The notes beneath the pieces were generated by a model. That model had not been told where the DNA came from and made no database searches. It worked only from the letters and a program-made list of their open reading frames with translations. The position numbers were made by a program, and so were the translations under genes. 64,000 bases of DNA from an uncultured cyanobacterium (lineage in GTDB: Bacteria; Cyanobacteriota; Cyanobacteriia; PCC-6307; Cyanobiaceae), in NCBI GenBank assembly GCA_903917565.1, contig CAIXBB010000004.1:1-64000 (forward strand), written 5' to 3'. Shown here one piece after another: positions 3,001 to 20,496 of the stretch. Numbering within the stretch: position 1 is the first letter of the stretch; each line of letters starts with the position of its first letter.

Positions 3001-4240
3001 TAAGCTTGTAGCCAAGATGCACCATCCATCTCAATGACCAGCTTCCTGTTGTAATCCAGTTTGTTGTGAATAGCCTGTCACTTTCTGATCGCATTTCATC
3101 AAACCATGTAATGCGAGGATGATCTCGAAAGCGTGGGTAAAGATCTAGAAACTCATTTCTCAAGAAGAACTGCTGAATGCGATTCTCATCAATCAAATTG
3201 CAAATTGCTGGTGCATGAGACTTGATGACGACAGAGTCCATGCATATATAGTAAGTCGGTCTATAGTCAATTCTTTCCCATAGCCTATAGGCTGAATTCA
3301 TTCCGCATGTAGGGATTCTAAATCTCTTTATAGTGTCAAAGTTAACAAGACTTGCTGACGGGCCATTGCCAATAACCAATACAGTATTGAGTTCGATAGT
3401 ATTGGAGCTTCTAAGACTGACAGGCTTAAATGCTTCTATTCTAGGAGTCGCTGAGTGTTGATCTTCTTGCATATCCCTCTCGTTGATGCTGTAGTTATCA
3501 ATATCAACTAATATGTTATTCTCTTTGACCCACGAAAGTGTCTTTAAATGAAGTTCGTTGAGTTCATCTTTAAGCTTATCGTCTGTCTCTAGGGTAATTC
3601 CCGGCTCAAGTATTGTTGAATTGACTGTTAGACGTTGCGTGACTGGATTCACCTCGAATCCCAATTTATCAGAAAGGATGAGAAGAATCTTTTCTGGATT
3701 CAGACGCAGGTCATCTTGCCTTATTACAAAAGTCTTATTGACATGAAGCATGTTGACTAACTTGCTAAGAACTGACAAATAATCAATTCTCTTGCACGCA
3801 AATTCAAGGTAGTACTCACTTAGTGAGCAATTTGAGTAAAAATCACGACTTTTATAGGTGAAATGTGCTTTATCATCTCCTTTGACTGCCTTACTTCTAT
3901 GAAATGCATGCCAACTCCGAAGGCGATCGTATGGATTACCTAACATAAATAGTATTGCTGTGTTCTTTCTTATGTTGAGGGTTGAGTTAAGCGCCAAAGA
4001 GATCTGCTTGACATATGTATAGCCGCTAAACTTGTGAAATATGTGACCACTGCACAGTAGCTCACTATTGTAATATTCACTAATCTCGCTATTGCTAAAT
4101 CCATTGTATTCGTATGCGCCTGTATTGGGGTCCTTCAGGACTTTTACATTTGTGTATTTCTCAAAATACTTTGACAGCGCAGTGGTTCCGCACCTTGGAA
4201 ATCCGGCGCAAATTAAATTTAGTCCTTCTTGTTGTGACAT
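53..4240 (-). CDS. Four-domain sulfotransferase / glycosyltransferase fusion protein
   Basis: A 1395-residue protein predicted to act in surface-glycan assembly. The order seen is: a sulfotransferase domain at residues 8-200, with a PAPS-loop motif GFPRCGTTAL and a second motif LGNPYDRLRSW; a Rossmann-like domain at about 285-510 with GNGPS and a later LIS-VIGVDANY strand, resembling DUF115 and GT42 sialyltransferase folds; a GT-A-like domain at about 560-760 with TNSD and GCD motifs; and a GT-B-like domain from about 985 to 1380. The ATG at 4240 is preferred over the upstream TTG at 4255 because GAGAGG lies about 9 bases before it. It follows the CMP-sugar synthetase fusion by a few bases. 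It is plainly AT-rich against its GC-rich surroundings, which suggests transfer. The domain identities are inferred from motifs; the coding call is firm. Confidence 0.85.
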   Translation of the reverse strand: MSQQEGLNLICAGFPRCGTTALSKYFEKYTNVKVLKDPNTGAYEYNGFSNSEISEYYNSELLCSGHIFHKFSGYTYVKQISLALNSTLNIRKNTAILFMLGNPYDRLRSWHAFHRSKAVKGDDKAHFTYKSRDFYSNCSLSEYYLEFACKRIDYLSVLSKLVNMLHVNKTFVIRQDDLRLNPEKILLILSDKLGFEVNPVTQRLTVNSTILEPGITLETDDKLKDELNELHLKTLSWVKENNILVDIDNYSINERDMQEDQHSATPRIEAFKPVSLRSSNTIELNTVLVIGNGPSASLVNFDTIKRFRIPTCGMNSAYRLWERIDYRPTYYICMDSVVIKSHAPAICNLIDENRIQQFFLRNEFLDLYPRFRDHPRITWFDEMRSESDRLFTTNWITTGSWSLRWMVHLGYKLISVIGVDANYQEVLKEATKAGKIELSINQTPKYNPNYFFDDYQQAGDEYNIPNDPQYVAKHGTTVHADAVIRVREDIDMLGLSSKVYDLSPISEHNAFPKLPISSFFNIQGVSLTTSFFFQTEKGDEARLNAKALCYNLKQARVISINLLFEGDFSCFYQLLDVSEKETIDYSLSEGRLVLIAIDKRPSYLDLFNAAKACNTQIAIVTNSDLVYSDELIESISTSYSVQSPITVYCLTRWNQTDNGTFLQGQVPAPPWQEIPTEHMELLSDVNYLSYDTYVFNKDLLIPESFARVYIGTFGCDTAIAAILRAGGFIVSNPCLDLKAIHIDNKPRNYSGETGTRQVLENVDAFKSTLITELINAFPDSDIIATLEATSSTSLSIGTPTHALGWWYCLFRMFGASPWVTSSDYPDIWFERFSIDPHKLVSIQDELTVRFRDSMRRGSFLEIIIDGSNGDHYLGCFNQSEILKEIKSQLFRYDRQYVLFERDVHEKTRREFDKFMLYVKNQFRASNKGASQNLFTATKSSQFLASISISATENEDFTNTKRDDRSFHVISEKDCLNTSSKLHQTRLLIIDATPLGSNSATGQIKKTLFGHLASSQIIQVWEHTGADPGLRLFFPDGNLDPNVITPCCTLKDILKALNSFSPTAIYFRSTASEKLHHFHHQVVESFNIPSIIHIMDDWEARMLWDKNPNHVVLSKLLRKSLRQSQVRLTICSKMSHEFSKRYACNWMELSNAVDFSDPIVSRLGSSHSAEMTSTNQVIVKYMGGLAEDMNSQSILEIACAIDELSNEGINVAFEIYTMSWYIDWANQYLSCLKSVSVKPLVSMEIYNETIRSADILLIAYNFDERSIAYTGLSMANKLPEILATGKMLFAYGPLEIATIDKIYNNDLGVVVASHDTAQLKNSLRNVVLDNDLRRSKGEAGKTYARRNFSLRHAQHKVNALISLAIAKKARSLSPIASGSSGCNGVSFCPRDLGFRY

Positions 4241-4251
4241 TAAAGAGCCTC

Positions 4252-5931
4252 TCAAATTCCAGCAATTAAGGCTCTTGCCTCATTGCGCCTTGTGGTGTGG
4301 TGGGCTTGGGCTATGGCTGAAGCAATGTCCCAGTCTTCAGGCTCGTCAATGTCAATTGATTCGTACTTGGAGCTTACGAATAGATGTGGGGCTGCACCAA
4401 TTCTGGCTTGTGATGCGTTGAAACTTGTTTTTGAGAAGATGTAGAGATTGGAATTCTCTTCGTACCACGGAGTCAAGTCCTGGGTCCTAACCAAATTGTT
4501 CGGATCATGATTGACAGGCGTGCCATCACGCTCATAGAAGCGTGTCTGAATTCGATCGACAGTGAACAAAGAATCGCTGGTGTTGTTGGCTATGCCCAGC
4601 TTGTGAGCGTTGATGGCTTTGCGAATGGTGTCAACGCTCAGCAGCGGATTGGTTGTGTGCGTCATCAGGTAGATGTCCGCAGGTACGTTCTCTATGTCGT
4701 TCGCTATGACTTTGTTCATGCTGACGAAGTCACCACAGATCTCTTCGGGTCTGTCGCGGATGAGCACGCGTTCACTGTCCACAAGGCCATTTTCCTTGAG
4801 GATTTCCCGTGCATCGGTGTTGATCACGACCAGATCGATCTCCTCCACCTCTAGCAGCGTGTCGAGAATCCAGCGAAACAGAGGCTTGCCACAAAAATCA
4901 CGGAAGTTCTTGCCACTCACCCTGGCGCTGTGGGCCTTCATCGGCAACAGGGCAACGATTCGCTCAGGTGTGGGGGTTGTCATGGTGGGGAGGTTGGAGG
5001 GGCGGGCTTCGAAATCAACATGGGACAGGGCACGTCCCTTCTTCGCCGTTGGGTAGAAGTAGCTTTCCCGCAGGCTGGACGAGATCTCCCGGATGCGGCG
5101 GTTGCCGCTGTAACTTCCCCAGTACTGGGCAAGCCGATAATGGAAGACGCCAGGCCAGCGATGTAATCTTACCCGATGTCTGTGGGCATTCCTAAGATCT
5201 GAGAGAACACCTCTGGAGAGATAGCGCAACAGATCCCGCTTGCGCACCACCAGGTCGGGACGAATACGCTGTAGTGCCAGAGCCTCCCGCTCGAACCGGG
5301 TTTTGACTTGGGGCCAGCGCTCGTGGTGATAGTGGAACACGCTTGCTTCCGCCACGTAGCCCACCTTGCCACCATCGGCCACGAGCCTTTGCGCGAGGTG
5401 CATGTCTTCCAGGCCCGTGAGACTTTCATCAAACTTGTATCGATTCCAGGCGTCTTTCAGCAGTGCGCTGTTGGCGTTATTGCAGTAGATGCCTTGCTGT
5501 GGGATGTCGCTTTGTTCGGGAAAGTATTTGTCAAAAATCCTATGCTCACTCCAATGGGAGTCCGGCCCACCCAGTTGCCTGCCGTAGCTGTAGGCAACGA
5601 TCCCTTCTGCCAAAGGCGACACGAGCCTTTGCAACCAGCTGCCATGACACGGCACGCAATGCCCACTGATCATCACGAGAAAGCGGCCTAGTGCTGCTTC
5701 ACAGCCTCGGTTGAGGCTGCGCCCGAAGGAGAATTCCTCTTTAGTGATGCTCAGAATCCTGCACCCATGGGCATGGGCTATCTCCAGTGTGCCATCGGTG
5801 GAGCCTGAGTCGATCAGCACCACCTCACTTCGAAACTCGCTACGCTGGGCATGAATGGCCTCCAGCAACTGAGGCAAGTAACGAGCCTCGTTCAAGGTGC
5901 GAATGATGATGCTTGTTTCGACCGGTCTCAT
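4252..5931 (-). CDS. Fusion of GT2 glycosyltransferase and CMP-nonulosonate (acylneuraminate) cytidylyltransferase
   Basis: 559 residues. The N-terminal half (about 4-240) is a family 2 glycosyltransferase, with the opening SIIIRTLNE, the nucleotide-binding VVLIDSGSTDGT, and a GLEDMHLAQRL acidic motif. The C-terminal part (about 318-550) is a NeuA/KdsB-type cytidylyltransferase, with the LLPMKAHSARVSGKN signature and a closing IDIDEPEDWDIA motif; it should activate a nonulosonic acid or KDO-like sugar with CTP. The ATG at 5931 overlaps the stop of the upstream MBL gene (ATGA), so the longer reading frame to 5973 is not preferred. The gene that would make the free sugar (a NeuB-type synthase) is not in the window. 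The sugar identity is unknown. Confidence 0.85.
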   Translation of the reverse strand: MRPVETSIIIRTLNEARYLPQLLEAIHAQRSEFRSEVVLIDSGSTDGTLEIAHAHGCRILSITKEEFSFGRSLNRGCEAALGRFLVMISGHCVPCHGSWLQRLVSPLAEGIVAYSYGRQLGGPDSHWSEHRIFDKYFPEQSDIPQQGIYCNNANSALLKDAWNRYKFDESLTGLEDMHLAQRLVADGGKVGYVAEASVFHYHHERWPQVKTRFEREALALQRIRPDLVVRKRDLLRYLSRGVLSDLRNAHRHRVRLHRWPGVFHYRLAQYWGSYSGNRRIREISSSLRESYFYPTAKKGRALSHVDFEARPSNLPTMTTPTPERIVALLPMKAHSARVSGKNFRDFCGKPLFRWILDTLLEVEEIDLVVINTDAREILKENGLVDSERVLIRDRPEEICGDFVSMNKVIANDIENVPADIYLMTHTTNPLLSVDTIRKAINAHKLGIANNTSDSLFTVDRIQTRFYERDGTPVNHDPNNLVRTQDLTPWYEENSNLYIFSKTSFNASQARIGAAPHLFVSSKYESIDIDEPEDWDIASAIAQAHHTTRRNEARALIAGI

Positions 5932-6722
5932 AAGCTGATGTCCTCTGCGTTCATCACCAGCCGGAAGGGCCATGGCTGTGATGCATAAACGGCCTTGATC
6001 TCGTCGGGTGAGGTGCTGTTGATGGCAAACAGATCCCAGTGAACTGGCATCACCTCCAGCACCTCCAGCTCAGCGGCCAGGCCAAACGCTTCCCGAACGC
6101 TCATGTTGCCCACGATTCCGCGCCGCCGGCGAAAGAAATTGTCTTCGTTGACCGGCAGCAAGGCGCTGTGGATGGGCCGCAGAGCCTTCAGACTTGCGAT
6201 CACGTCTTCACAGGCACTGGTGTCTCCGGCCACCAGGATCCGTTTCTGATTGCGCTCCAGCAGGTAGCCCACCGCCTTCGGCTGGCCATCCTGTGCCTTG
6301 ATGATTTGAGGGTGTGCCGCCGGCACGGCCCGCACCCGCAGATGGGCCCCCAGCTCCGTCCAGCTCGCGCTGGCAGGCACCACGCGCTCCTGGTTGATGC
6401 CCCATTCCTGCAGTTTGCGCCGAACCGGTTCTGGTGCCATGAAGCGTGCTCCAGGCGAAGCGTCGGCGATCACGGGGATGGTGTGGGGATCACAGTGATC
6501 CATGTGCTCATGGGTAATGAGCACCCAATTGACCTGATCGAGGCTGGACGGTGGATACGCAATTGGCACCTGTCGCACCAGATCTGGCGCATCCAGTTCC
6601 TGAACCGAGTGGCTGAGATATGGATCGATGAGAACCAAAACATCGCCGAGGTCGATTCTCAAGCCCGTCTGACCCAGATGTTCCAGGCTGCCGTTGGACT
6701 GGATGGTGTCAAGGGCTGTCAT
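5928..6722 (-). CDS. UlaG-like MBL-fold metallo-hydrolase
   Basis: 264 residues of the metallo-beta-lactamase superfamily. The metal-binding motif HEHMDH lies at residues 71-76, further ligands are likely in VPAAHPQ and VAGDTSA, and PVHWDLF is near the end. The N-terminal LRIDLGDVLVLIDP strand is typical of the UlaG (L-ascorbate-6-phosphate lactonase-like) branch. The substrate cannot be read from sequence. Both ends are translationally coupled by ATGA overlaps, upstream to the decayed DUF115-like gene and downstream to the GT2/CMP-sugar synthetase fusion, which ties it to sugar or glycan chemistry. Other MBL enzymes are possible. Confidence 0.8.
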   Translation of the reverse strand: MTALDTIQSNGSLEHLGQTGLRIDLGDVLVLIDPYLSHSVQELDAPDLVRQVPIAYPPSSLDQVNWVLITHEHMDHCDPHTIPVIADASPGARFMAPEPVRRKLQEWGINQERVVPASASWTELGAHLRVRAVPAAHPQIIKAQDGQPKAVGYLLERNQKRILVAGDTSACEDVIASLKALRPIHSALLPVNEDNFFRRRRGIVGNMSVREAFGLAAELEVLEVMPVHWDLFAINSTSPDEIKAVYASQPWPFRLVMNAEDISL

Positions 6723-7654: not shown

Positions 7655-8638
7655 TCATCGCTGCGGCATCGGAGCAGAATCGGTCCTACCCGGTTGCTGC
7701 GCGTAGAGGGCGTAGGTGCTTGCCAGCCCATTCGGTAGCTGGATGCTGGACTGCCAGCCCAGCTCCGCCAGCCGACTCACATCCAGCTGCTTTTTTGGGG
7801 TGCCATCGGGTTTGCTTGCATCCCAGAAGATGTCCCCCTGATAACCAATGGTCGCCGCCACTAGCTCTGCCAGTTCTTTGATGCTCAGATCGACGCCGGT
7901 GCCTACGTTCAGGTGCTGGATGGGATCTTCTGCGTTGGGCTGCCAGTGCTCCAGGGCAAACAGGGCCGCAGAAGCCAGATCATCGGCATGGAGAAACTCC
8001 CGCAGGGGGCTGCCGGTGCCCCAGCAGGTGACGCTGGGGGCTTTCGCCTCCTTGGCCTCGTGGAATCGCCGGATCATCGCCGCCATCACATGGCTGTGGG
8101 TGGGGTGGTAGTTGTCGCCCGGCCCATACAGATTGGTGGGCATCAGGCTGATGGCATCGAAGCCCTCCTGTTTGCGCAGGGCCCGGCAGAGTTGGATGCC
8201 GGCGATCTTGGCGATCGCGTACCACTCGTTGGTGGGCTCCAGGGGACCAGTGAGCAGGGCCTCCTCCTGGATCGGTTGCGGCGCCAGCCGGGGGTAGATG
8301 CAGCTGCTTCCCAGGAACAGCAGCCGGCGGCTGCCGCTGCGCCAGGCGCTCTCGATCACGTGGTTCTGGATCTTGAGGTTGTCGAGCAGGAAATCAGCCG
8401 GATAGGTGTCGTTGAAGTGGATGCCGCCTACCTTGGCGGCCGCCAGCACCACCACCTCGGGCCGCTGGGCCTCAAACCAGGCCTGCACGGCAACTCCGTC
8501 CTCCAGATCCAGCTCGCTGCGGGGTGCGGTAAGCAGATTGCTGTAACCCGCGGCTGAGAGTGCCCGGACGATGGCGGACCCCGCCATGCCCCTATGCCCC
8601 GCGACGAAGATGCGGTCGCTGCGGTGGATCAGGCTCAC
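7655..8638 (-). CDS. fcl: GDP-L-fucose synthase
   Basis: 327 residues, normal length for the family. It makes GDP-L-fucose from GDP-4-keto-6-deoxymannose by epimerisation and NADPH reduction in the cytoplasm. The NADP-binding GHRGMAG is at residues 14-20, the SSC motif is at 111-113, and the catalytic Tyr140 and Lys144 lie in WYAIAK. The start is GTG at 8638, overlapping the stop of gmd as GTGA, so the two enzymes of the GDP-fucose pathway are translationally coupled. It is the last gene of that pair. Confidence 0.95.
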
Positions 8639-9780
8639 GACCGCGAACCACCTTGGGTGGCTTTCAGATGGCCGCTGCTGGGGGGATTCTCCATCGAACC
8701 CACCACCGGGAACCCCTTCAGCCGCAGGTAGGCCTCCTTCTTTGCCTCTTCCTTGTCGGCGGCCACCATCTCCGCCACCAGTTCTTCCAACGTGGTGGTG
8801 GGCGTCCAGCCCAGCTTCTCCCTGGCCTTGGTGGGATCCCCCAGCAGTGTTTCCACCTCCGCCGGCCGGAAGTAACGCGGATCGATTCGCACCACCACCT
8901 CGTTGCTGCCGGCTCGCCGCCCGATTTCGTTCACCCCCTCACCGCTCCATTCGATGCCGCCCCAGCCCAGTTCGCTGGATGCCAGCTCGATGAACCGCCG
9001 TACGCTCTCCTGCCGGCCGGTGGCGATCACGAAATCCTCCGGTGGCCCCTCCTGCTGCAGCATGCGCCATTGCATCTCCACGTAATCCCTGGCGTGGCCC
9101 CAGTCGCGCAGGGAATCGAGGTTGCCCATGAACAGGCATTGGTCGAGGCCGGCATCGATGCGGGCCAGGCCGCGGGTGATCTTGCGGGTCACGAAGGTTT
9201 CACCGCGCCTGGGGCTCTCGTGGTTGAACAGGATGCCGTTGCAGGCATACATTCCGTAGGCCTCGCGGTAGTTCACCGTGATCCAGTAGGCATACATCTT
9301 GGCCACCCCATACGGGCTGCGCGGATAGAAGGGAGTCGTCTCCTTCTGGGGGGTCTCCTGCACAAGCCCGTAGAGCTCACTGGTGCTGGCCTGGTAAATC
9401 CGCGTCTTGCCGGTGAGCCCCAGGATCCGCACCGCCTCCAGGATCCGCAGCGTGCCCAGGGCATCGCTGTTGGCGGTGTATTCCGGGCTCTCGAAGCTCA
9501 CCGCCACATGGCTCTGGGCGCCGAGGTTGTAGATCTCATCGGGCTGCACCTGCTGCACGATGCGGATCAGATTCGTGGAATCGGTGAGATCGCCGTAATG
9601 CAGCACCAGCCTAGGGTCGCTCTCATGGGGATCCTGATAGAGGTGATCGACCCGATGGGTGTTGAAGCTGCTGGCGCGGCGCTTGATGCCGTGCACCTCG
9701 TAGCCCTTCTCCAGCAGCAGCTCGGTGAGGTAGCTGCCGTCCTGGCCAGTGATACCGGTGATCAGGGCGGTTTTGTGCAT
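8635..9780 (-). CDS. gmd: GDP-mannose 4,6-dehydratase
   Basis: 381 residues. It converts GDP-mannose to GDP-4-keto-6-deoxymannose, the first step to GDP-fucose. The nucleotide-binding [12 protein letters not shown] is at residues 7-18, followed by the family hallmarks [18 protein letters not shown] and [10 protein letters not shown], which carries the catalytic Tyr/Lys pair. ATG at 9780 is chosen because the protein then opens MHKTALITG as the family does; the open frame to 9861 adds 27 residues with no homology. It is coupled to fcl downstream. Confidence 0.95.
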
Positions 9781-10064
9781 AGGTGCCGTGAGGGTCCTTT
9801 GGTTGTTGCAGCGCCAGCAACGTACGGATCGTAAACCCGATAACAGGTTCAGCCTGAACACTTGTGGCGGTGTTCGAACAGTTCAGCCAGCCCCGTCGTG
9901 GATTTGACCAGGGCCCCAGCTTCTGGCGCTGCTGATCGGCCACCAGAGACTGGCTATGGGCCTGGAGGCTCTGGATCGCCTCCTGCAACTGGTGTCTTCC
10001 TCCCGGAAGGGGATAGGGACGGCATGCACAACGTGCCAGTTGCTGAAGATCTCATCCCACCCAC

Positions 10065-11315
10065 TTACGTGGCCTGCGTTTCCTGCAGCAGGCTGGCCAC
10101 ATGGGCCGCGAACCCCTCCCCCAGCATCCGCTGGCCGTAGGCCGTGAACCGTTCGGCGGCGCTGCCGCTCCCGGCACGACTCTGCTCCACCAGGGCCGCC
10201 AGGCCCTCCAGCCAGCCGCCATCGGCGCCACTGCGCCAGTTCAGGCCCAGATCCCGGGCCTCGCGCTCCAGCCATCCCCCCGCCCGTCCCACCACCGCCG
10301 CCGCTTGCCCGCTCCTCCATCGCGCGGCGCCGTAGCACCACAGCAGCCCCGAACTGCGCTGCCGGTAGATGAGCGGGTCGTACGCCAAGAGGGTCCCATC
10401 GCAGCCGGCCAGCAGCGCCTGCATCTGCCCCGGCTCCACCCGCTCGTTCAGCCATTGGAACCCGCTGATCCGCTCACGGGCCCGCTCCAGGCTGGTGCGC
10501 TCCTCATCGGGCAGCGGTTCCCGGCTGTGCAGGTGGAACAGCCACTCCGCGTCTCGCAGCGCCGCTGGCCGGGGCCCTCCGCCCAGCAGGGCGTTCACCA
10601 CTTCAAGCGCTTCCCGGCGGCCCTTGCCGGGCTTGAGGTCGCCCCAGTGCAGCAGGATCCGCGGCCGGCCACTTGATGAGAGGAGCTCATCGGCGGGTGG
10701 CTCCGGCACCGGCGTCCCAGCCCCCACCACGGCCGGATGCAGCCCGGCGCACGCCAGGCCCGCCGCCGCCAGCAGGGGCCCGTACAGCTCCAGGCTCTGC
10801 TGGCTCGGCAGCACAAGCCGCAGCCGATGGCCGCCCTGCTCCACCGCCCGCGCCAGGGCGCCCAGAGCCACCTGGCAGTTGCTGGTGGCCTCCGCCTCTC
10901 CCCCTTGCCCGTCGAGGGTTTCCCCCGGGGCGAACATCAAGCTCACCACCACGGTGGCCGCTGGGCAGTGGCACAGAGCCCGGGCCAGCCCCAGCAGCTG
11001 GAACGGCAGCGCCGTGTGCATCACCCATCCACCCACGGGCCCCTGCAACTCCAGCGCCGCGCGCAGCTGCCGCTCCAGCTGTCTGGCCAGATGCACCGTG
11101 CCGCCCAGATCGGCCCAGTGGCGCGGATCCACGTAGCCGCAGTCGCGGAACACACCCCGGCAGCCGCTGGCCGAGATCGCTGCATCTGCCCAGCACTCCC
11201 CCGGCCAGCCCTGGGCCGCCAGCGCCGCCAGCAACTGGGCGTTCACATCGCCGTGGTGCCCCACGTTGCTGGCGTAGGCCGGATCCACGATCACCACCCA
11301 GCTGTTTCGCTCCAT
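10065..11315 (-). CDS. GT-B-type glycosyltransferase (family 1-like)
   Basis: 416 residues with a two-Rossmann GT-B layout. The N-terminal half opens MERNSWVVIVDPAYASNVGH. The C-terminal half starts near ILLHWGDLKPGKGRREAL and has a donor-site region LLAYDPLIYRQRSSG. ATG at 11315 has GGAG about 7 bases upstream; the longer open frame to 12011 is antisense to the neighbouring plus-strand gene and is rejected. It is divergent from the helical-repeat gene at 11379 across only 63 bases, so they probably share a promoter region. The donor and acceptor are unknown. Confidence 0.75.
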   Translation of the reverse strand: MERNSWVVIVDPAYASNVGHHGDVNAQLLAALAAQGWPGECWADAAISASGCRGVFRDCGYVDPRHWADLGGTVHLARQLERQLRAALELQGPVGGWVMHTALPFQLLGLARALCHCPAATVVVSLMFAPGETLDGQGGEAEATSNCQVALGALARAVEQGGHRLRLVLPSQQSLELYGPLLAAAGLACAGLHPAVVGAGTPVPEPPADELLSSSGRPRILLHWGDLKPGKGRREALEVVNALLGGGPRPAALRDAEWLFHLHSREPLPDEERTSLERARERISGFQWLNERVEPGQMQALLAGCDGTLLAYDPLIYRQRSSGLLWCYGAARWRSGQAAAVVGRAGGWLEREARDLGLNWRSGADGGWLEGLAALVEQSRAGSGSAAERFTAYGQRMLGEGFAAHVASLLQETQAT

Positions 11316-11378
11316 CCGCTCCGTTTCGATGCCAGCGGCTGCCAACCGCCGCACAATGGTGCCAGTGATCCCCAGGCT

Positions 11379-12608
11379 GTGAACCGAATCGGCTGGCCCA
11401 CCGCATCGGAACTCCTCCAGGAGCTGGCCGGCGCTCCTTCGGCAGACCCATCTGTTCGGCTCAACCAATTGCGCTGGCTGGGCCGTTACGGACTGGTGGA
11501 GCCGCTGCGTGATCTTGTTGCCCAGCTGCGGAGGTCCCCCCATTGGGGGGCGCCCCTGGCGCTGGAGGTGAGCCTGGCCTGGTTGCTCGCCGGCGATGGC
11601 CACCAGTCCGACCTGGCCGTCCTGGAGGCCGATGTTCTCGATCCCTCCCTCGCTCTGGTTCCCGATCCGTGGGGCCTCTGGCCCGCACCCGGCAAGCCCC
11701 AGGCCCCGACGCCCCAGGAGCAACGGGTCGACGCCGTGGCCCTGGCGGCCCGGATCCGCCACTGGCGCTGGCTCGAACCCACCGCCCTGGCGGAAACCTG
11801 GCGCCAACGGGCCCAGGCCGACTGGACGCTGGCCCTCACCAGCCCCGGGCTGGAGGAGCTGATCCTGCTGCTCCGTCACGGGCCTGCCCTCGACCCGCCG
11901 ATCGAGCCCTTCCTGGCCGAACTGGTGGGGGAGGCGCCGATCGCGGCCAGCCCCATTCAGGCCTTTCAGTTCTGGGCCCTGCTCACTGACATCCGCCCGG
12001 ACTGGCCCCACGCGCGCCTCAAGGCCGCCGATCTCGCCCTGGGCCAGGGGGATCGGCAGCGCTGTGACAACTGGATCGCCAGCGCCTCCCCAGACACCCG
12101 ACGCAGCCCCTGGCTATGGGACATCGCCGCCCGCTCGGCCCTCGAAGCCGGTGCCATCACCACTGCCCTCGACCACTGGGGCGAGGCCCTGGCGAAAGCG
12201 CCCCCTGAGCAGGCGGAGATGTTCCGCCAGCGCCGCCGTGAGGCCCGGCGGGGCCCCGGCCTGCTTCAGGCCCGCTCCCTGCTCAATCGCGGTGACGTCA
12301 CGCCGGCGCTGACGCTGCTGCAGCGGCTGGTGGCCGACGATCCCCAGTGGCAGCCGCTGCGCACCCTGTTGCAGCAGGCCGAATCCAGCGCCGCCGCCGC
12401 GGGCGGAACCGTAGCGGTGGCAGGCCAGCCCCCCCAGCGCTTTGGCCAGCTCCTGGAGCAGGCCGCCGCCCGCATCGGGCTCACCCTTCCCCCGATTGCC
12501 TCCGACCCCCAGGGCCCCGTGCCGGATCCCGAGGCGGCTCGCCAGCGGCTTGAGGCCTTCTCCAGCAGCCTCAGCGACGCCGAAGCCCGCTTCGCCCTGG
12601 GGGCCTGA
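11379..12608 (+). CDS. Helical (TPR-like) repeat protein of the glycan cluster
   Basis: 409 residues from a GTG at 11379. It is rich in paired helices such as LEAGAITTALDHWGEALAKA and LLNRGDVTPALTLLQRLV, which look like tetratricopeptide repeats; no catalytic motif is seen. The start is the best in-frame candidate, since an open frame reaching 10737 would run antisense through the divergent glycosyltransferase. By position between a glycosyltransferase and a methyltransferase it may be a scaffold for glycan enzymes. That role is inference only. Confidence 0.7.
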   Translation: MNRIGWPTASELLQELAGAPSADPSVRLNQLRWLGRYGLVEPLRDLVAQLRRSPHWGAPLALEVSLAWLLAGDGHQSDLAVLEADVLDPSLALVPDPWGLWPAPGKPQAPTPQEQRVDAVALAARIRHWRWLEPTALAETWRQRAQADWTLALTSPGLEELILLLRHGPALDPPIEPFLAELVGEAPIAASPIQAFQFWALLTDIRPDWPHARLKAADLALGQGDRQRCDNWIASASPDTRRSPWLWDIAARSALEAGAITTALDHWGEALAKAPPEQAEMFRQRRREARRGPGLLQARSLLNRGDVTPALTLLQRLVADDPQWQPLRTLLQQAESSAAAAGGTVAVAGQPPQRFGQLLEQAAARIGLTLPPIASDPQGPVPDPEAARQRLEAFSSSLSDAEARFALGA

Positions 12609-12879: not shown

Positions 12880-12980
12880 TGGATCAAGCTTAGAAGCTCT
12901 GCGCCACGGCGTCGATCCATCCGCAACAGACCGTGCAGGAGTGATCACGGTAGCTTTGCGCTGTGGTCTTCCCTGGCGCC

Positions 12981-13841
12981 ATGCCCCTGGCCTCCCCGGA
13001 TCTCGTGCAGCGCACCTATCGCCAGCAGGCGGCTTTTCAGCGCGACTTCAAGGCGCAATGGAGCGATCTGGCCAGGCAGGTGCACACCAGCCTTCGCCTG
13101 ATGGCCTTGAACGGGATACGTGATCCACTCACCGATGCTCCCATCGCGGCCACCGATCTCCGGGTGGAGGGAACCAACTTCCGCGAAAGCCTGCAGCACG
13201 AGGGCCTGGTGTCACGGCAACGGGCCGTGCTCCTGTTGTTGCGTCAGTTGATCGAAGCCGGTCTCCTCCCGCGTCTGGACGCCTTGCGGCTCTACTGCCC
13301 GGAAGCCATCACCCCCTTCGCAGAGCATCTGCGGGGGCTTGTGGGGCACTTTCACGGTAGCGAATATCTACCGGATCCCCAGGATCGCCGGCGTCAGCAG
13401 GTGCGCCACGAGGATCTCTGCCAGCTCAGCTTCGAGGATCGCCGCTTTGATGTGGTGATCTGCAATGAGGTTCTCGAGCATGTCTACGACCTGCCGGCCG
13501 CCCTGCGTTCGATGCTGCGGGTGCTCGTGCCCGGTGGCGTGCTCTTCGGCACGGTTCCTTTTGCCTACGGCCAGTCCGCCTCCACCGTGAAGGCCCTGCA
13601 TCTCGCCCAGGAGCTGGATCCCGAACTCCTGGTGGAGCCGGAGTTCCACGGCGACCCGGTGCAGCCGAAACGAGGCTCGCTCGTGTACCGCATTCCGGGC
13701 TGGGACTTTCTCGATCAGCTGCGCGAGGCCGGTTTCGAGGATCCCCGCATCGAAGCGATCCACTCCCCCACCTACGGCATCCTCGGTGCCGAGATCCCCT
13801 GGATCCTGGTGTTCTTGGCCCAGCGCCCTCGCGATTCCTAG
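12981..13841 (+). CDS. SAM-dependent methyltransferase, class I-like
   Basis: 286 residues. The core is a Rossmann methyltransferase: LRLYCPEAITPF stands where the family has its cofactor strand, then GSEYLPD, RHEDLCQLSFEDRRFDVV, the ICNEVLEHV acidic motif and VPGGVLFGTVPF. The upstream NFRESLQHEGLVSRQRA fits a segment that in relatives contains cysteines (RExLvCPxxGLNxR), here lost. Start ATG 12981; GTG at 12963 would add six residues. It probably methylates a sugar or lipid-linked glycan. Substrate unknown. Confidence 0.75.
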   Translation: MPLASPDLVQRTYRQQAAFQRDFKAQWSDLARQVHTSLRLMALNGIRDPLTDAPIAATDLRVEGTNFRESLQHEGLVSRQRAVLLLLRQLIEAGLLPRLDALRLYCPEAITPFAEHLRGLVGHFHGSEYLPDPQDRRRQQVRHEDLCQLSFEDRRFDVVICNEVLEHVYDLPAALRSMLRVLVPGGVLFGTVPFAYGQSASTVKALHLAQELDPELLVEPEFHGDPVQPKRGSLVYRIPGWDFLDQLREAGFEDPRIEAIHSPTYGILGAEIPWILVFLAQRPRDS

Positions 13842-13863: not shown

Positions 13864-15369
13864 TCAGTTCCCCTCAAGGGCAAGTGCCAGCAACCGATCC
13901 GCCAGCTGGAACTTCTCCTGCTTCCGGTTGCAGGCCACGAGCCAGCCGTGCCGCCGGTAGAAGCCGATGGAGGCCCCCAGTTGCTCCGCCAGCGTCCAGC
14001 TGGTCTCCCAGTCGCTGCGCCCTTCAGCGCTGGCCCAGGTCGGTAACCCCAGGGCCTGGCGCGTCCAGGGGAGGATCCCGTGCCGTTGCCGCCCCAGGAT
14101 CTCCATCGTGTCGGAGATCCTGGGCGGCTCCATGCCGTTTTCCAGCTCCAACATCCCAATCAGATCAGCGAGCAGCCTCTCCAGCAATTGGTTGCTGGGG
14201 TGGTTGAAGGTGTGAAACAGCGGCAAGGGGTGGCCAGACGCGTTGTAGTTCGCCTCCAGCCAGGGGGAGAGCTGCAGGTCGCAATCGTGTTCTCGCCGGG
14301 CCAGCTCTGCCAGCGATCGCCGGTGCCAGCCCCGCAGGAGATCGTCCATGGCCGGGGTGGCGGGCAGCTCGAGGATCGCTTCGGCCTCCAGCCCCCGCTC
14401 CGCGGCCACCATCGCCAGAAAATCGTGATAGTCGCCCAAGGGGGATTCGGCCGCCAGGCCGGGCAGTTCGCCCCGGTCGTCGTGGGCGTAGCCGATCGTG
14501 GCGTGATACCCCTCGTAGTGCAGATTCGGCAGCACGATGGCGTGAGCACCTGCCGGCAGCAGGGCCTCCAGGGTGACCCCATCCAGGCCGATGCCGTCGC
14601 GATAGCCCGGGGTGATCCGGTGCATCACCAGCACCTGCGTTTCGCCCAGCACCCGATGCAGATCCTTCACCTCCTCCGGAGTGGCGAGATGCACCGGCGT
14701 GCAGAAGTGGAACCGGTGCGAGGGCAGGGCCCGCTCCAGCCCCAGGAACAGCGGATGGGTCTGACAGTTGCCCACGATCGTGATCAGGGTTGCCCCTGCC
14801 GGCCTCGCTGTCGCCGTGGCGTCAGCGGCGGCAGACGCCATGCCCAGCAACTCCTGCCACATGGACATGGACGGTATCCATGGCGGCAGGGGATCGTGGT
14901 AGCTGCCAAGCTGCTCCAGCAGTTGCAAGGCCAAGGCGTTAAGGTCCTGGCGCTGCCGGGGAGACCAGCCATGGTCGCCGGCCTTCAACCGCCTGTGGAT
15001 CCAGATGGACCCATAGCGGCAGAACTGCTCCTGGTGGATGGCCACCCACTCCGGCTGCGGTTCGGCCCCTTCCAGCAGATGGCCGTACAGCCGAGCCCCC
15101 CAGCCGGCCAGGGAGATGGCGTGGTCCGGTTCGCTGGTGGCCACGGCCAGCATCTGCTGGTGGCAGGCCAGCCCCAGTTCCAGCAGCAACTCCAGATCGT
15201 CGCTCGCCAGTGCGGTGTCGGAAGCCAGCACGCCTTGCCAGGCCAGCTCCGCAATCTTGTCCAGACCCTGGCGCTTGAGGCACTCTCTGGCCAGGTCCAT
15301 GCAGACGGCCCGATCCCTCAGCACGTTCGAAGCGGGGAGGGCCAGGCCTGGACTGGGGGATGTCTCCAT
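13864..15369 (-). CDS. WcbI-family polysaccharide biosynthesis protein with extra N-terminal domain
   Basis: 501 residues. The C-terminal part from about residue 190 is a WcbI-type domain (capsule biosynthesis, putative acetyltransferase or hydrolase), with TIVGNCQTHPLF, HRITPGYRDGIGL and LPNLHYEGYHATIGYAHDD. The N-terminal part is a separate helical domain; residues 65-124 align without gaps to residues 37-96 of the divergent GT61 protein, sharing ACHQ, GARLY, W-VA, EQFCR and W-I motifs. Start ATG 15369. Length exceeds a bare WcbI domain because of this extension. Likely modifies a surface polysaccharide. Confidence 0.8.
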   Translation of the reverse strand: METSPSPGLALPASNVLRDRAVCMDLARECLKRQGLDKIAELAWQGVLASDTALASDDLELLLELGLACHQQMLAVATSEPDHAISLAGWGARLYGHLLEGAEPQPEWVAIHQEQFCRYGSIWIHRRLKAGDHGWSPRQRQDLNALALQLLEQLGSYHDPLPPWIPSMSMWQELLGMASAAADATATARPAGATLITIVGNCQTHPLFLGLERALPSHRFHFCTPVHLATPEEVKDLHRVLGETQVLVMHRITPGYRDGIGLDGVTLEALLPAGAHAIVLPNLHYEGYHATIGYAHDDRGELPGLAAESPLGDYHDFLAMVAAERGLEAEAILELPATPAMDDLLRGWHRRSLAELARREHDCDLQLSPWLEANYNASGHPLPLFHTFNHPSNQLLERLLADLIGMLELENGMEPPRISDTMEILGRQRHGILPWTRQALGLPTWASAEGRSDWETSWTLAEQLGASIGFYRRHGWLVACNRKQEKFQLADRLLALALEGN

Positions 15370-15484
15370 TCAGATGCTGCGACCCCCCTCCGGGGGAGTG
15401 ATCGGCGCGGCTTCCATCATGAAGGGCATGGTTGCTCCACCAACCCTCAACCAGTGTCAAAGTCAACCGTGATCCGCCGATGCC

Positions 15485-16972
15485 ATGAGCAACGCTCGCC
15501 AGCTCGCTGAGGCCTGCCGGCAGTTGCCACCCCTGCCTCCCCAGGGCAGCCAGACCGCACTGGATCCCACCGAACGGGATCGGTTGCGCCAGCTCGGAGC
15601 CGCTTGTCATCAGCACATGCTGGCCCTGCCCGAAGAGCAGCGTTACGAGGCCATCGCCCTCGCCCTCGATGGCGCCCGCCTCTACCGCTGGCTGCAGGCC
15701 ACCAGCCCCGCGGAGCCCGACTGGGTCGCCGTGATCGAGGAGCAGTTCTGCCGTTTCGGCGTCCTCTGGATCAAGGACCAGGGCCGATCCGATCCCCATC
15801 TGGCCCTTCGGGCACTGCCGCTGATCGATCGCCTGCTGCAGTTCAATCCGACGCAACACGATTGGATCAGCGCCACCCGCCAGCAGCTGGAGCAGGCCGC
15901 GGCTCCCATCCCGCGTGGATTTTTTGCCCCCCCAACTGGCCCTGCCCCCTTCCCCTGGTCGGAACCCCTCCACACCTATCGGCTCAGCCATCGCCTGGCC
16001 AGCAACGCCGTGGTACTGCCCATCGGCGTCATCGCCGACGGGGAATGGTTCTGCGACTGCCTCCAGTACCTCCCCGCGCGCTGGCCCGAGGCCCACTGGA
16101 TGCAGCAGCTCGGCGGCTACCAGCTCGAACGCGATGGAGACAGCATCAGCCTCCGTCCCCGGCCCGATCAGGGGCCCTCACCCCTGCGGTTGGCGGGCAC
16201 CTGGTGCGTACTGAACGACATCGTTGGCCGCCGCAACCTGGGCCACTTCTTTCACGACACCCTCCCCCAGCTGGCGGCCATCCGCCGGCTCTCCAGCGAG
16301 CTGGGGGAGTTGAAGGTGCTGGCCTGCCGCGAACGCTATGCCAATCTCGCCCACCTGCGTCGCCTGCTCTGGCCCGGGGAGGTGCAGTTCCGGGAGGATC
16401 TTCCGGCCTCGTTCAGCGTCGAGCGGTTGGTGCTGCAGCCGGTGGCCTGCAACGGAGCCAGTGGCTTCTACCCCGATTTCCAGCGGGTCTGGTGCTTTGC
16501 GCTGGAGGATTACCGCGAGGGGGTGGAGCTGTTGCGCCGGGAGCTGCATCAGCCCTCGCCTCCTTTCGCGCTGCAGGATCACTGGATCTACTTCAGCCGC
16601 AATCTGGCCGCCCCCACCGAAGTTCCCCATGGTCGTCACTTCAGCAACCACGCCGAACTGCTCGAGCAACTCAGCAACCACGGCGTGCTGATCCTCGATC
16701 CGGGTCACTACGACATCCGGGCCCTCCATGGCCTGATCAGCCGGGCTCGGGGCTTCATCGGCATCCATGGAGCTGGGCTTGCCAATGCCCTGCTCGCCCC
16801 TGAAGGCACCCCGGTGATCGAAATCCGGCCCCACGGTGGCGCTTGGCGGATGCTGGAACTGGCGGGCCGCTCCGCCGGCCTCGACTGGCAGGTGCTCGAC
16901 TGTCCCGCCGATCCAGCGGTGCCAGGCCGCAGCGTGCTGCCCATCCAGGCCCTGCTGGATCGGCTCCAGTAG
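15485..16972 (+). CDS. Family 61 glycosyltransferase with shared N-terminal domain
   Basis: 495 residues. The C-terminal half is a GT61 (DUF563) domain, shown by NLGHFFHDTLPQLAAI, IYFSRNLAAPTEV, and the closing IHGAGLANALLAPEGTPVIEI signature (read in parts). The first about 110 residues are not part of GT61 and match the N-terminal domain of the divergent WcbI-family protein. ATG at 15485 is the start; 115 bases separate the two divergent starts. Transfers an unknown sugar, probably in the cytoplasm, in the same glycan pathway. Confidence 0.85.
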   Translation: MSNARQLAEACRQLPPLPPQGSQTALDPTERDRLRQLGAACHQHMLALPEEQRYEAIALALDGARLYRWLQATSPAEPDWVAVIEEQFCRFGVLWIKDQGRSDPHLALRALPLIDRLLQFNPTQHDWISATRQQLEQAAAPIPRGFFAPPTGPAPFPWSEPLHTYRLSHRLASNAVVLPIGVIADGEWFCDCLQYLPARWPEAHWMQQLGGYQLERDGDSISLRPRPDQGPSPLRLAGTWCVLNDIVGRRNLGHFFHDTLPQLAAIRRLSSELGELKVLACRERYANLAHLRRLLWPGEVQFREDLPASFSVERLVLQPVACNGASGFYPDFQRVWCFALEDYREGVELLRRELHQPSPPFALQDHWIYFSRNLAAPTEVPHGRHFSNHAELLEQLSNHGVLILDPGHYDIRALHGLISRARGFIGIHGAGLANALLAPEGTPVIEIRPHGGAWRMLELAGRSAGLDWQVLDCPADPAVPGRSVLPIQALLDRLQ

Positions 16973-16977
16973 ACGCT

Positions 16978-18426
16978 TCAGCCCCGCACCCAGTCGGTCA
17001 CACCACCCGGCCGGTCGATCAGCTCAATGCCCTCGGCGGCCAGTTCGGTGCGGATGCGGTCGGCTGTGGCGAAATCGCGGGCGGCCTTGGCGGCCCGGCG
17101 TTCCTCGATCCGTTGCTGGATCTCCCCCCCATCCACCGCTTCTGCCGCCGGCTCCGCCTCCAGCCCCAGCACCCCGGCCAGCTCCACCAGCAGCTGCCAA
17201 CGGGGTTGCAGCTGGGCCACTTCGGGGGCGGCGCCCCCTTCGCGCTCGCCTCGCTCCAGCCGGTTGGCCAGGGCCCGCAGGGGCCGGGCCAGCTCGAACA
17301 GCACCGCCACGGCCGCCGAGGTGTTGAGGTCGTCGTCCATGGCGGCGGCGAAGCGGTTGCGGGCCTCTGTGAGCGCGTCTGAGGGCTCTGCAGGCGGCGC
17401 GGCACGCCAGCCCAGGGCCGCTGCGTGGCGTTCCCCCAGGCCCAGGGCGCCGTCGAGCCCCTTCCAGCCCGTGGCGGCCGCCGCCAGGGCCTCGCTGGTG
17501 AAATCCAGCGGCTTGCGGTAGTGGGCCTGCAGCACGAACAGCCGCAGGGTCATCGGGCTGACGCCGCTTTCGAGCAGCGCACGGATCGTGGTGAAGTTGC
17601 CCAGCGATTTGGACATCTTCTCGCCGCCCACATTCACCATGCCGTTGTGCAGCCAGAAGTGCGCCAGGGGCTGGCCGCTGGCCGCCTCCGACTGGGCGAT
17701 CTCGTTCTCATGGTGCGGAAAGATCAGGTCGGCACCGCCCAGGTGGATGTCGATCGTGGGGCCGAGCTCCTCGCGCACCATGGCCGAACACTCGATGTGC
17801 CAGCCCGGCCGTCCCGGCCCCCAGGGGGAGGGAAAGCTGGGCTCACCGGGTTTGGCGCCTTTCCAGAGGGCGAAGTCGAAGGGATGCTGCTTGCGGGCTT
17901 CTTCGGCCTCGCTGGTGCGGCCGCTGGCGCCCTCCTGCTGCTCCTCGAGTTGGCGGCCGCTGAGCTTGCCGTAGCCGGCCTGGCGCATCACCGAGAAGTA
18001 CACATCGCCATCGGCGGAATAGGCCGCCCGCTTCTCCACCAGGTCACTGATCAGGCTGCGGATCGCGTCCAGGCTGCGGGTGGCCCGGGGCATCCGGTCG
18101 GGGGGAAGGATGTGCAGGGCGGCCATGTCCGCCTGGAAGGCGGCGATGTTGCGCTCGCTCACCACCGCCATGGAGCTGCCCTCCGCTTCGGCCCGTTTGA
18201 GGATCTTGTCGTCGATGTCGGTGAAGTTCTGCACGAAGGTCACCGCGTAGCCACACCACACCAGATATCGCCGCAGCACGTCCCAGACGATGTAGCTGCG
18301 GGCATGGCCCAGGTGGCACAGGTCGTAGACCGTGACACCGCAGCAGTAGATCGACACCCTCCCCGGCTGCAGCGGCTCGAAGGGCTCGCAGCGGCGGCTG
18401 AGGGTGTTGGTGAGCCGCAGGGTCAA
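16978..18426 (-). CDS. cysS: Cysteinyl-tRNA synthetase
   Basis: 482 residues. It charges tRNA-Cys with cysteine. The class I HIGH motif appears as HLGHARSY, the KMSKS loop as [10 protein letters not shown], and the zinc-site region as WHIECSAM. The start is TTG at 18426, overlapping the rfbB stop as TTGA, with GGAG about 10 bases upstream; reading from there gives the expected TLRLTNTL opening. The upstream frame extension to 18498 lies inside rfbB and is rejected. Coupling of an essential synthetase to a sugar gene is unusual, but the overlap is clear. Confidence 0.95.
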
Positions 18427-19568
18427 TGGCCCGCTCCCGCCGTGGCCTGGCCCAGGCGGCCGCCGCCGTAGCCGGCCCGGCTGCGCACGTTGGCGCACCA
18501 GTCGCCGTGCTCCAGGTACCAGCGCACCGTCTCCCTCAGACCCTGGTTGAAGTCATGGCGCGGCTGCCAGCCCAGCTCGGTGCTGATCCGCTCCGGGTCG
18601 ATGGCGTAGCGCCGGTCGTGGCCCGGCCGGTCGGCCACCGGCGTGATCAGGCTGGCGTGGGGGGAGCCGGCGGGCCGCAGCTCGTCCATCAGGGCGCAGA
18701 TGGCCTGCACCACCTTCTTGTTGGTGCGCTCCCCATGGCCCCCGACGCAGTAGCTGCGCCCCAGCTGCCCGCTGGTGGCGGCCAGCAGCAGGGCCTCCAC
18801 GTGGTCCTCCACGTAGAGCCAGTCGCGCACATTGGCCCCATCGCCGTACAGCGGGATCGGCTCGCCGGCGGCGGCCTTGAGGATCACCACCGGGATCAGC
18901 TTCTCGGGGAATTGCCAGGGGCCGTAGTTGTTGCTGCAGTTGGTGAGCACCACCGGCAGCCCGTAGGTGTGGTGCCAGGCCTGCACCAGGTGGTCGCTGC
19001 CCGCCTTGCTGGCCGAATAGGGGCTGCGCGGGTCGTAGGGGGTGGTTTCCGAGAACCGCCCGGTGGCCCCTAACGAGCCGAACACCTCGTCGGTGCTGAT
19101 GTGGTGGAAGCGGAACTGTTCCCGGCGCTCCGCCGGCAGCCCCTCCCAGTGGGTCCGCACCGCCTGCAGCAGGTTGTAGGTGCCCATCACGTTGCTCACC
19201 AGGAACGCGCCCGGATCGTCGATCGAGCGGTCGACATGGCTTTCGGCCGCCAGGTGCAGCACCAGATCCGGATCGGCCTGACGCACCGCCGCCGCCACGG
19301 CCTCCCCATCGGCCAGATCCACCTGCAGCAGTCGGTGGCGCGGGCCGTCGGAGCGCTCGGCCGCTTCGCCCAGCTCCGCCAGGGTGTTGTAAACCCCCAG
19401 CAGATCGCTGGCGTAGCCCATCTTGTCGAGGTTGAACACCGTCACGGTGCTGTCCCGCAGCAGCCGCCGCACCAGCGCCCCGCCGATGAAACCGGCCCCC
19501 CCCGTCACCAGGAGGCGGCGACGGCCGGCGAGCAGCACCGGCAGGTCGAGGGAGTGGTTGGGGAGCAT
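18423..19568 (-). CDS. rfbB: dTDP-glucose 4,6-dehydratase
   Basis: 381 residues. It produces dTDP-4-keto-6-deoxyglucose for dTDP-rhamnose. The opening [19 protein letters not shown] binds [26 protein letters not shown] and [18 protein letters not shown] are the family hallmarks with the catalytic Tyr/Lys. ATG at 19568 is preferred to the unsupported extension to 19694. It lies 28 bases after rfbD and overlaps cysS. Confidence 0.95.
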
Positions 19569-19596
19569 CGGGGTGGAGCGAGACGACAAAGGGGGT

Positions 19597-20496
19597 TCAG
19601 GCCTTGGGCAGGGGGATCTGCGCCAGCACCTCGGCCAGGGCGGCCTGCCAGTGTTGCCCCTCCAGCTCCAGGGTGCGCCGGGTGGTGCTTCCATCCAGCA
19701 GGGAATAGGCGGGGCGCCGGGCCGGGGTGGGGTAGTCGGCGGTGGTGATCGGCTTCACCCGGGCCGGGGCGTCGATCAGCCCCCGCACCGCCGCCTGGGC
19801 GCCGATGGCCACGGCGAAGTCGTACCAGCTGGCGGCGCCGCAGTCGCTCCAGTGGTGGTGCCCGCCCACGCCCCGCTCGATCACCCGCCAGCAGGCGGCC
19901 GCCAGCCCGGGGGTGGCCGTGGGGCAGCCCACCTGGTCGGCCACCACCTTGAGGGGCTCGCCGGCGGCGGCCCTGGCCCGGTGCAGCCGCAGCATCGTGA
20001 GGCAGAAGTTGGCCCCCACCGGCCCATACACCCAGCTGGTGCGCAGCAGGCACAGGCGCTCGGGGGGCAGGGCCGCCGCCGCCCGCCGTTCCCCCTCGGC
20101 CTTGGTGGCGCCGTACACCCCCAGGGGCCGCAGGGGTTGCTCCGGCGCGTAGGGATGGCCCTGCTCACCGTCGAACACGAAATCAGTGCTCACCTGCAGC
20201 AGCCGCCCGCCGCCGCTGGCCAGGGCTTCGGCGAAGGCCCCGGGGGCGCCGGCATTCACCGCCCCAGCCAGCTCCGCCTCTGCCTCGGCCCGATCCACCG
20301 CGGTGTAGGCGCCGGCATTGAGCACCCAGTCAGGCCGGTGCCGCCCCACCGCCGCCCGGCAGGCCCCGGGGTCGGCCAGATCCAGCTCGCCGCGGCCCGT
20401 GGCGATCAGGTCGATGCCGGCGGGGACCGAGGCCACAAGGGCCCGGCCCAGCTGGCCGTCGCGGCCGGTCAGCAGCACCCGCACCGGTTCAGGCAT
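19597..20496 (-). CDS. rfbD: dTDP-4-dehydrorhamnose reductase
   Basis: 299 residues. It carries out the last step to dTDP-L-rhamnose, NADPH reduction of the 4-keto sugar. The motifs VLLTGRDGQLGRALV, VNAGAYTAVDRAEAE, STDFVFDGEQGHPY and YGATKAEGE are all in place. Start ATG 20496. It is followed directly by rfbB. The other two pathway genes, rfbA and rfbC, are absent from the window and must be elsewhere, as polA is the upstream neighbour. Confidence 0.95.
   Translation of the reverse strand: MPEPVRVLLTGRDGQLGRALVASVPAGIDLIATGRGELDLADPGACRAAVGRHRPDWVLNAGAYTAVDRAEAEAELAGAVNAGAPGAFAEALASGGGRLLQVSTDFVFDGEQGHPYAPEQPLRPLGVYGATKAEGERRAAAALPPERLCLLRTSWVYGPVGANFCLTMLRLHRARAAAGEPLKVVADQVGCPTATPGLAAACWRVIERGVGGHHHWSDCGAASWYDFAVAIGAQAAVRGLIDAPARVKPITTADYPTPARRPAYSLLDGSTTRRTLELEGQHWQAALAEVLAQIPLPKA

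Follow-up and report, generated by a model that had tools for sequence, protein, structure and literature searches.

The DNA analysed here (the window) is a stretch of 64,000 nucleotides from an uncultured cyanobacterium of the family Cyanobiaceae (contig CAIXBB010000004.1, positions 1 to 64,000). It carries two adjacent genes, encoding a WcbI-family and a GT61-family protein, which share an N-terminal module that is also found on further enzymes and probably holds the enzymes of the sugar coat together.

The two genes are located head to head, 115 base pairs apart (intergenic region 15370..15484); no sigma-70-like consensus was found between positions 15300 and 15560, which span this region. 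The WcbI gene (13864..15369, minus strand) is an open reading frame (ORF) of 501 amino acids matching PF18588 with E 3.4e-46 and 157.9 bits against a cut-off of 29.2, with model positions 2–203 of 205 covered. Its WcbI domain, a putative coenzyme A (CoA)-dependent acyltransferase, occupies residues 196–410 (14140..14784, minus strand), and the protein distantly matches the solved WcbI structure 4bqn (E 4.8e-4). The GT61 gene (15485..16972, plus strand) is an ORF of 495 amino acids matching PF04577 over model positions 2–137 of 137 (E 2.7e-14, 54 bits against a cut-off of 27), and its catalytic domain lies at residues 253–445 (16241..16819, plus strand). Both matches exceed the Pfam cut-offs, and the catalytic assignments of an earlier sequence-only reading hold.

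Both catalytic domains lie entirely C-terminal to the shared part, which was delimited by profile and AlphaFold2 (AF2) model to residues 62–172 of the WcbI protein (14854..15186, minus strand) and residues 34–135 of the GT61 protein (15584..15889, plus strand). The sequence-only reading had reported 31 identities in an ungapped alignment of 60 residues between positions 65–124 of the WcbI protein (14998–15177, minus strand) and 37–96 of the GT61 protein (15593–15772, plus strand), and this count is exact. The best ungapped 60-residue window obtained with 100 shuffles of the WcbI protein contained 17 identities (mean 14.3). The full-length BLASTP comparison gave 51 identities in 143 positions (E 2e-17; WcbI 50–192, GT61 22–152), and a second conserved block, ALxLLxRL...W, follows the EQFCR motif. 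The 60-residue match is confirmed and its length is revised, the true homologous unit comprising about 105–120 residues.

No Pfam or NCBIfam model scored above its cut-off over the module (ten proteins were scanned with NCBIfam). The Pfam match of the GT61 protein to TetR_C_28 (E 0.2, 12.5 bits against a cut-off of 26.4) was rejected, and the best sequence match of the module profile among solved structures, Cullin-7 (E 0.041), was taken as chance.

Predicted fold of the module

The structure predictions were based on alignments of 14 and 12 rows composed of window and related-locus sequences. The AF2 model of WcbI residues 1–192 contains seven helices (mean predicted local distance difference test score, pLDDT, 86.8; predicted template modelling score 0.78), and the predicted helices of the module span residues 56–76, 81–100, 107–129, 137–155 and 167–187. 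The model of the GT61 protein has an overall pLDDT of 53.8, with a block at residues 31–140 reaching 77–95, and its module helices are predicted at residues 28–47, 50–73, 79–98, 104–120 and 125–139. The five GT61 helices (28–139) correspond in order to the five WcbI helices (56–187). The expectation of the sequence-only reading that both N-terminal parts would share one predicted fold was borne out as the same helix series, compared by helix order without superposition. The catalytic fold of the GT61 family is of the GT-B type; it was looked for in the catalytic part of the AF2 model, which is unreliable (block pLDDT 21–64).

The Foldseek search against the PDB returned no match at E ≤ 1e-3, the best hits (lowest E 0.036) being designed helical repeats, tetratricopeptide repeat (TPR) and 14-3-3 chains. 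VIA-align gave Z up to 13.4 with designed helical-repeat toroids and about 9–10 with 14-3-3 and TPR chains, although values of that size are common for helical models and may reflect only a common arrangement. Neither window protein matched a Pfam TPR or 14-3-3 profile at E ≤ 1. From the predicted models, we read the module as an alpha/alpha helical-repeat solenoid with no close solved relative among the compared chains.

Distribution of the module and its partner domains

The starting profile, built from an alignment of nine modules, matched at least 28 of 399 genomes of the order at E ≤ 1e-3, representing 9 of 44 genera, all in the family of the window. In a class-wide sample, at least 5 of 388 genomes matched at E ≤ 1e-4, and every one belonged to this family. 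These counts are lower bounds because only part of the first-look candidates was scored: per genome, at most the best 11 of up to 76 in the order and the best 12 of up to 100 in the class-wide sample. Genomes G011 and G012 gave module matches in other searches, including the class-wide one, and none in the search of the 399 genomes. The named records matched by the profile were two of Cyanobium, Synechococcus WH 5701, UW140, GreenBA-s, a genome from a lake metagenome and an entry labelled Microcystis elabens; the family placement covers the six other than WH 5701. One scan of viral contigs returned no module match. In the samples searched, the module has thus far been seen in only one family of small cyanobacteria.

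An iterated profile, trained on its own hits and run on the ORFs of the retrieved loci, converged at 42 module genes in 28 loci, which were sorted by their Pfam matches and sequences. Fourteen encode WcbI proteins, two of which also carry GT61, and three carry GT61 alone. Two others have a GT2 domain, one an FkbM methyltransferase and one a sub-threshold sulfotransferase match. The remainder comprises an unnamed protein of 696 amino acids (L057), a further 14 unnamed proteins whose frames measure 437–867 amino acids, four module-only genes of about 270 amino acids and two tentative hits. The sequence-only reading had proposed an unnamed domain shared by two unrelated catalytic domains; tabulating the domains attached to profile hits supports this and widens it to GT2, the FkbM methyltransferase and unnamed proteins.

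The modules of the WcbI/GT61 type (17) and of other types (21) matched each other in a single profile–profile comparison with Prob 98.9 and E 1.3e-17 over 101 columns. Searched against 2161 ORFs, the profile of the 17 alone recovered 20 of 22 other-type genes, the tentative two not included (E 4e-10 to 1.3e-4), E-values which carry some selection because the scanned loci had been picked by the first profile. The two others (L073:6626-8701 and L063:9989-11998) gave no match below E 0.05 and rest on the iterated and mixed profiles. The two tentative genes, counted within the 42, reached E 0.0078 (L077:8641-9639) and 0.042 (L078:4209-5735) with the same profile and pass the iterated one. Reversed decoys, run for three profiles, gave best E-values of 0.26 (starting), 0.029 (iterated) and 0.0071 (mixed). 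Judged by these sequence comparisons, the WcbI/GT61-type and other-type modules are homologous. A match in a histidyl-tRNA synthetase (L082, E 9.6e-4) was discarded as a false positive, as it lies over the anticodon-binding domain and scored 0.38 with the full profile.

The genome of the window has a third copy of the module, on another contig, in an unnamed protein encoded beside a GT2/GT1-type glycosyltransferase gene. In L066 and L074 the module is internal, placed ahead of GT2 and after a stretch with a sub-threshold glycosyltransferase match. The four module-only genes occur in three genomes, and the three that were scanned had no Pfam match. Module-only proteins were located at L061:6983-7810, L072:904-2529 and L076:6532-7359, those of L061 and L072 near cysS like the window pair. 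Module genes lie by cysS in the window and in G017, G005, G001, G193 and G298. Two or more module genes were present in 12 of the 28 loci, or in 9 of 28 when the two tentative-hit loci and L070, where two frames are broken by N, are left out.

Another protein family of this lineage (L054, L063, L067–L070, L073, L075 and L083), mostly of about 570–730 amino acids, carries the module internally and has a conserved C-terminal part for which no Pfam match exceeded the cut-off; its member L054:3882-5828 has two modules. A GT-D-like reading of the C-terminal part of the proteins of about 640 amino acids is not claimed, as 1 of 16 members matched and did so below threshold (E 0.018). Likewise, a GT32-like reading of L057 was made by eye only and was set aside.

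The module is not an ordinary part of either enzyme family; had it been one, the sequence-only reading would have been refuted. Of 299 genomes of the order, 16 gave WcbI matches, 17 in all: ten with the module, six without it and one a fragment. The class-wide search found WcbI in 10 of 376 genomes; six lie outside the window's family and have frames of 300–370 amino acids without the module, and the other four are repeats from the order search. The module is therefore absent in 12 of the 22 near-complete WcbI matches (16 from the order, one with an internal stop codon, and six from outside the family). The module-WcbI gene of G206 (L064:5498-6544) has an in-frame stop (open frame of 857 amino acids, one TAG). 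Within the genus, 31 of 42 genomes had GT61 matches; of these matches, 48 in total, three have the module and 45 do not; for the 18 matches without a locus of their own, module status was taken from the genome search.

Pairing of WcbI with one GT61 subfamily

The catalytic part of the window GT61 protein found relatives at E ≤ 1e-20 in at least 6 of 399 genomes, again a lower bound, with the best 5 of up to 9 candidates scored per genome. In four of the six (G000, G017, G005 and G001) the gene is divergently adjacent to a module-WcbI gene, and in the other two (G193 and G269) it is fused behind module-WcbI in a single frame of 843 and 934 amino acids, respectively. The fused proteins have a single module for two catalytic domains. 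Three of the four separate GT61 proteins have their own module, so that in five of six cases the GT61 domain and a module are parts of one protein. In the tree of catalytic domains, the six form one clade (support 100/100) separate from 11 other GT61 proteins of the genus; 9 of the 17 rows of this tree have letters in less than half the columns, and of the 15 other GT61 loci first picked, 4 were dropped for lack of a usable match.

In G001, the WcbI protein has a sulfotransferase-like domain at its C-terminal end. This domain shows 53% identity to a freestanding gene in G147 and 55% to one in G269, both situated between module genes. These fused or freestanding forms (L079:6713-7510, L063:2607-3479 and L068:9175-10014) had no Pfam match above cut-off.

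Selection and origin of the GT61 copy

The ratios of nonsynonymous to synonymous substitution (dN/dS) were calculated for the window against G017 and against G005, respectively. They were 0.43 and 0.39 for the WcbI module and 0.34 and 0.31 for the rest of that protein, while the GT61 module gave 0.24 and 0.29 and the rest of the GT61 protein 0.29 and 0.29. The stretch ahead of the module gave 0.56 and 0.58 in WcbI (48 and 53 codons) and 0.32 and 1.0 in GT61 (20 and 26 codons). The module is under purifying selection.

An inverted repeat of 62 nucleotides (14998–15059 and 15711–15772) is 74% complementary; this residual repeat is consistent with an inverted duplication spanning the promoter, which may well be the origin of the GT61 module copy. 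The module tree joins the three GT61 modules in one clade (100/99), and the modules of the three adjacent WcbI proteins in another (100/99) that does not include them, so the copy predates the split of these species. A recent copy from the neighbouring WcbI gene was rejected, as the module tree, which supports no particular position for the GT61 module among the WcbI modules, does not nest it there.

Genes around the pair

The pair is surrounded by genes for a GDP-mannose 4,6-dehydratase (8635..9861, minus strand; PF16363, E 8.6e-153), a 573-residue fusion of GT2 and a cytidylyltransferase (4255–5973, minus strand; PF02348), RmlB-like dehydratase and RmlD (18423..20496, minus strand; PF16363, E 2.8e-84; PF04321, E 3.3e-82) and a methyltransferase adjoining WcbI (12963..13841, plus strand; PF08241, E 3.4e-13). 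Because of these genes, a surface glycan is the likely product of the cluster. Of the 27 other module loci, 11 contain a homologue of the methyltransferase (L054, L057, L063, L065, L067, L068, L073, L075, L079, L080 and L081), suggesting a conserved partner. Two further frames have no Pfam match at 1e-3: one (10065..12011, minus strand) has homologues in the WcbI/GT61 clusters of G001 and G005, and the other, of 1400 amino acids (56–4255, minus strand), has a start that looks sulfotransferase-like by eye.

Proposed role of the module

We lean, with slightly better than even confidence, towards a module that is a protein-interaction solenoid coupling WcbI and GT61 on one glycan. Docking through the module is suggested by the fusions and gene neighbourhoods. 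The module would bind protein, be it the module on the other enzyme, a shared scaffold or the module-only proteins; WcbI would supply an acyl-CoA, and the GT61 glycosyltransferase would hold or extend the acceptor glycan. The coupled reaction would be acylation of the glycan built by GT61. In two genomes the coupling would be achieved by fusion of WcbI and GT61 behind a single module. One module in the fusions and one on each of the separate proteins (three of four genomes) is what would be expected if the module replaces covalent fusion.

Several observations weigh against this role. A solenoid fold is not proof of protein binding, and folds of the predicted kind can hold a substrate; moreover, the fold assignment is generic because no Foldseek match reached the threshold, and the arrangement of module and active site cannot be read from the GT61 model because its catalytic part is unreliable. 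A single module gene was found in 16 of the 28 loci, and adjacent module genes could partly stem from tandem or inverted duplication. The WcbI module is also somewhat less constrained than the rest of its protein. Finally, the GT61 protein of G001 lacks the module while its WcbI neighbour has it, so a module on GT61 is not strictly required.

The strongest alternative, though in our opinion an unlikely one, is that the module is an acceptor-binding domain with which both enzymes grip the same glycan, lipid-linked or protein acceptor, sharing a substrate and forming no complex. It would suit the predicted helical-repeat fold; helical repeats are used for acceptors in O-GlcNAc transferase. The partner families named by Pfam generally act on glycans or similar acceptors. 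In the WcbI structure, according to PMC4104973, CoA is the only reacting molecule for which there is a site, and the module could supply another. The module-only genes speak against acceptor binding; the single module serving two catalytic domains in the fusions is compatible with either explanation.

A poor candidate is hitch-hiking, in which an ancient inverted duplication spanning the divergent promoter placed the 5' end of WcbI on GT61 and left the GT61 module without a role of its own. The head-to-head genes, the inverted repeat and the close GT61 relative without the module agree with such an event, but within the GT61 protein the module is constrained no more weakly than the remainder and the preceding stretch is looser, and the module also accompanies other enzymes at loci that have no such WcbI/GT61 gene pair. 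It is similarly improbable that the module serves the enzymes only as an extension for folding or stability and has no intermolecular partner: 16 of the 17 WcbI/GT61-type modules belong to a protein that also has a WcbI or GT61 domain, but the module-only proteins and the internal modules before GT2 fit poorly, and WcbI and GT61 relatives without the module exist.

Returning to the interaction solenoid, a wider and rather doubtful version would make it a general assembly tag of surface-glycan synthesis in this family. WcbI, GT61, GT2, methyltransferase, sulfotransferase-like and unnamed enzymes, together with module-only adaptors, would then form a multi-enzyme line in which GT61 would be the acceptor-presenting partner of WcbI.

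The WcbI of Burkholderia pseudomallei (4bqn/4bqo), solved in 2013, binds CoA and showed no activity in three assays; its authors suggested that it depends on a partner by which the acceptor is presented (PMC4104973). GT61 is a testable candidate for this missing partner in the present lineage, since a branch of WcbI occurs either fused to one GT61 subfamily or side by side with it in six of the six genomes found to have that subfamily. The module profile could also tie unnamed picocyanobacterial proteins to surface-glycan synthesis.

Comparison with known systems

By title and abstract, one open-access library, from which subscription journals are mostly absent, yielded nothing on WcbI in cyanobacteria or on docking domains of this kind in polysaccharide synthesis; regions of other kinds through which polysaccharide enzymes interact have been described. 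The B. pseudomallei WcbI has the same domain (PF18588) and a proposed partner protein, but its 310 residues, with a beta-sheet lobe starting at residue 2, leave no room for an N-terminal module (PMC4104973). The chain-length complex WbdD-WbdA of E. coli O9a is similar in that a non-catalytic helical region unites enzymes of one surface polysaccharide (in extracts from PMC3482155). This complex and the Klebsiella O4/O7 polymerase complexes are grouped as the nearest known kind. Compared by description, the region of WbdD is a C-terminal coiled coil, whereas the window module is a predicted solenoid found on several different enzymes.

The alpha-solenoids of TPR and 14-3-3 proteins may resemble the predicted module in their antiparallel helix pairs (VIA-align Z about 9.4–10), and they differ in the lack of a profile match at E ≤ 1 and the best Foldseek E of 0.036. 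The short helical docking domains of polyketide and peptide synthases bring together consecutive enzymes of an assembly line; as a point of difference, they are located at chain ends, act head-to-tail and form cognate sets.

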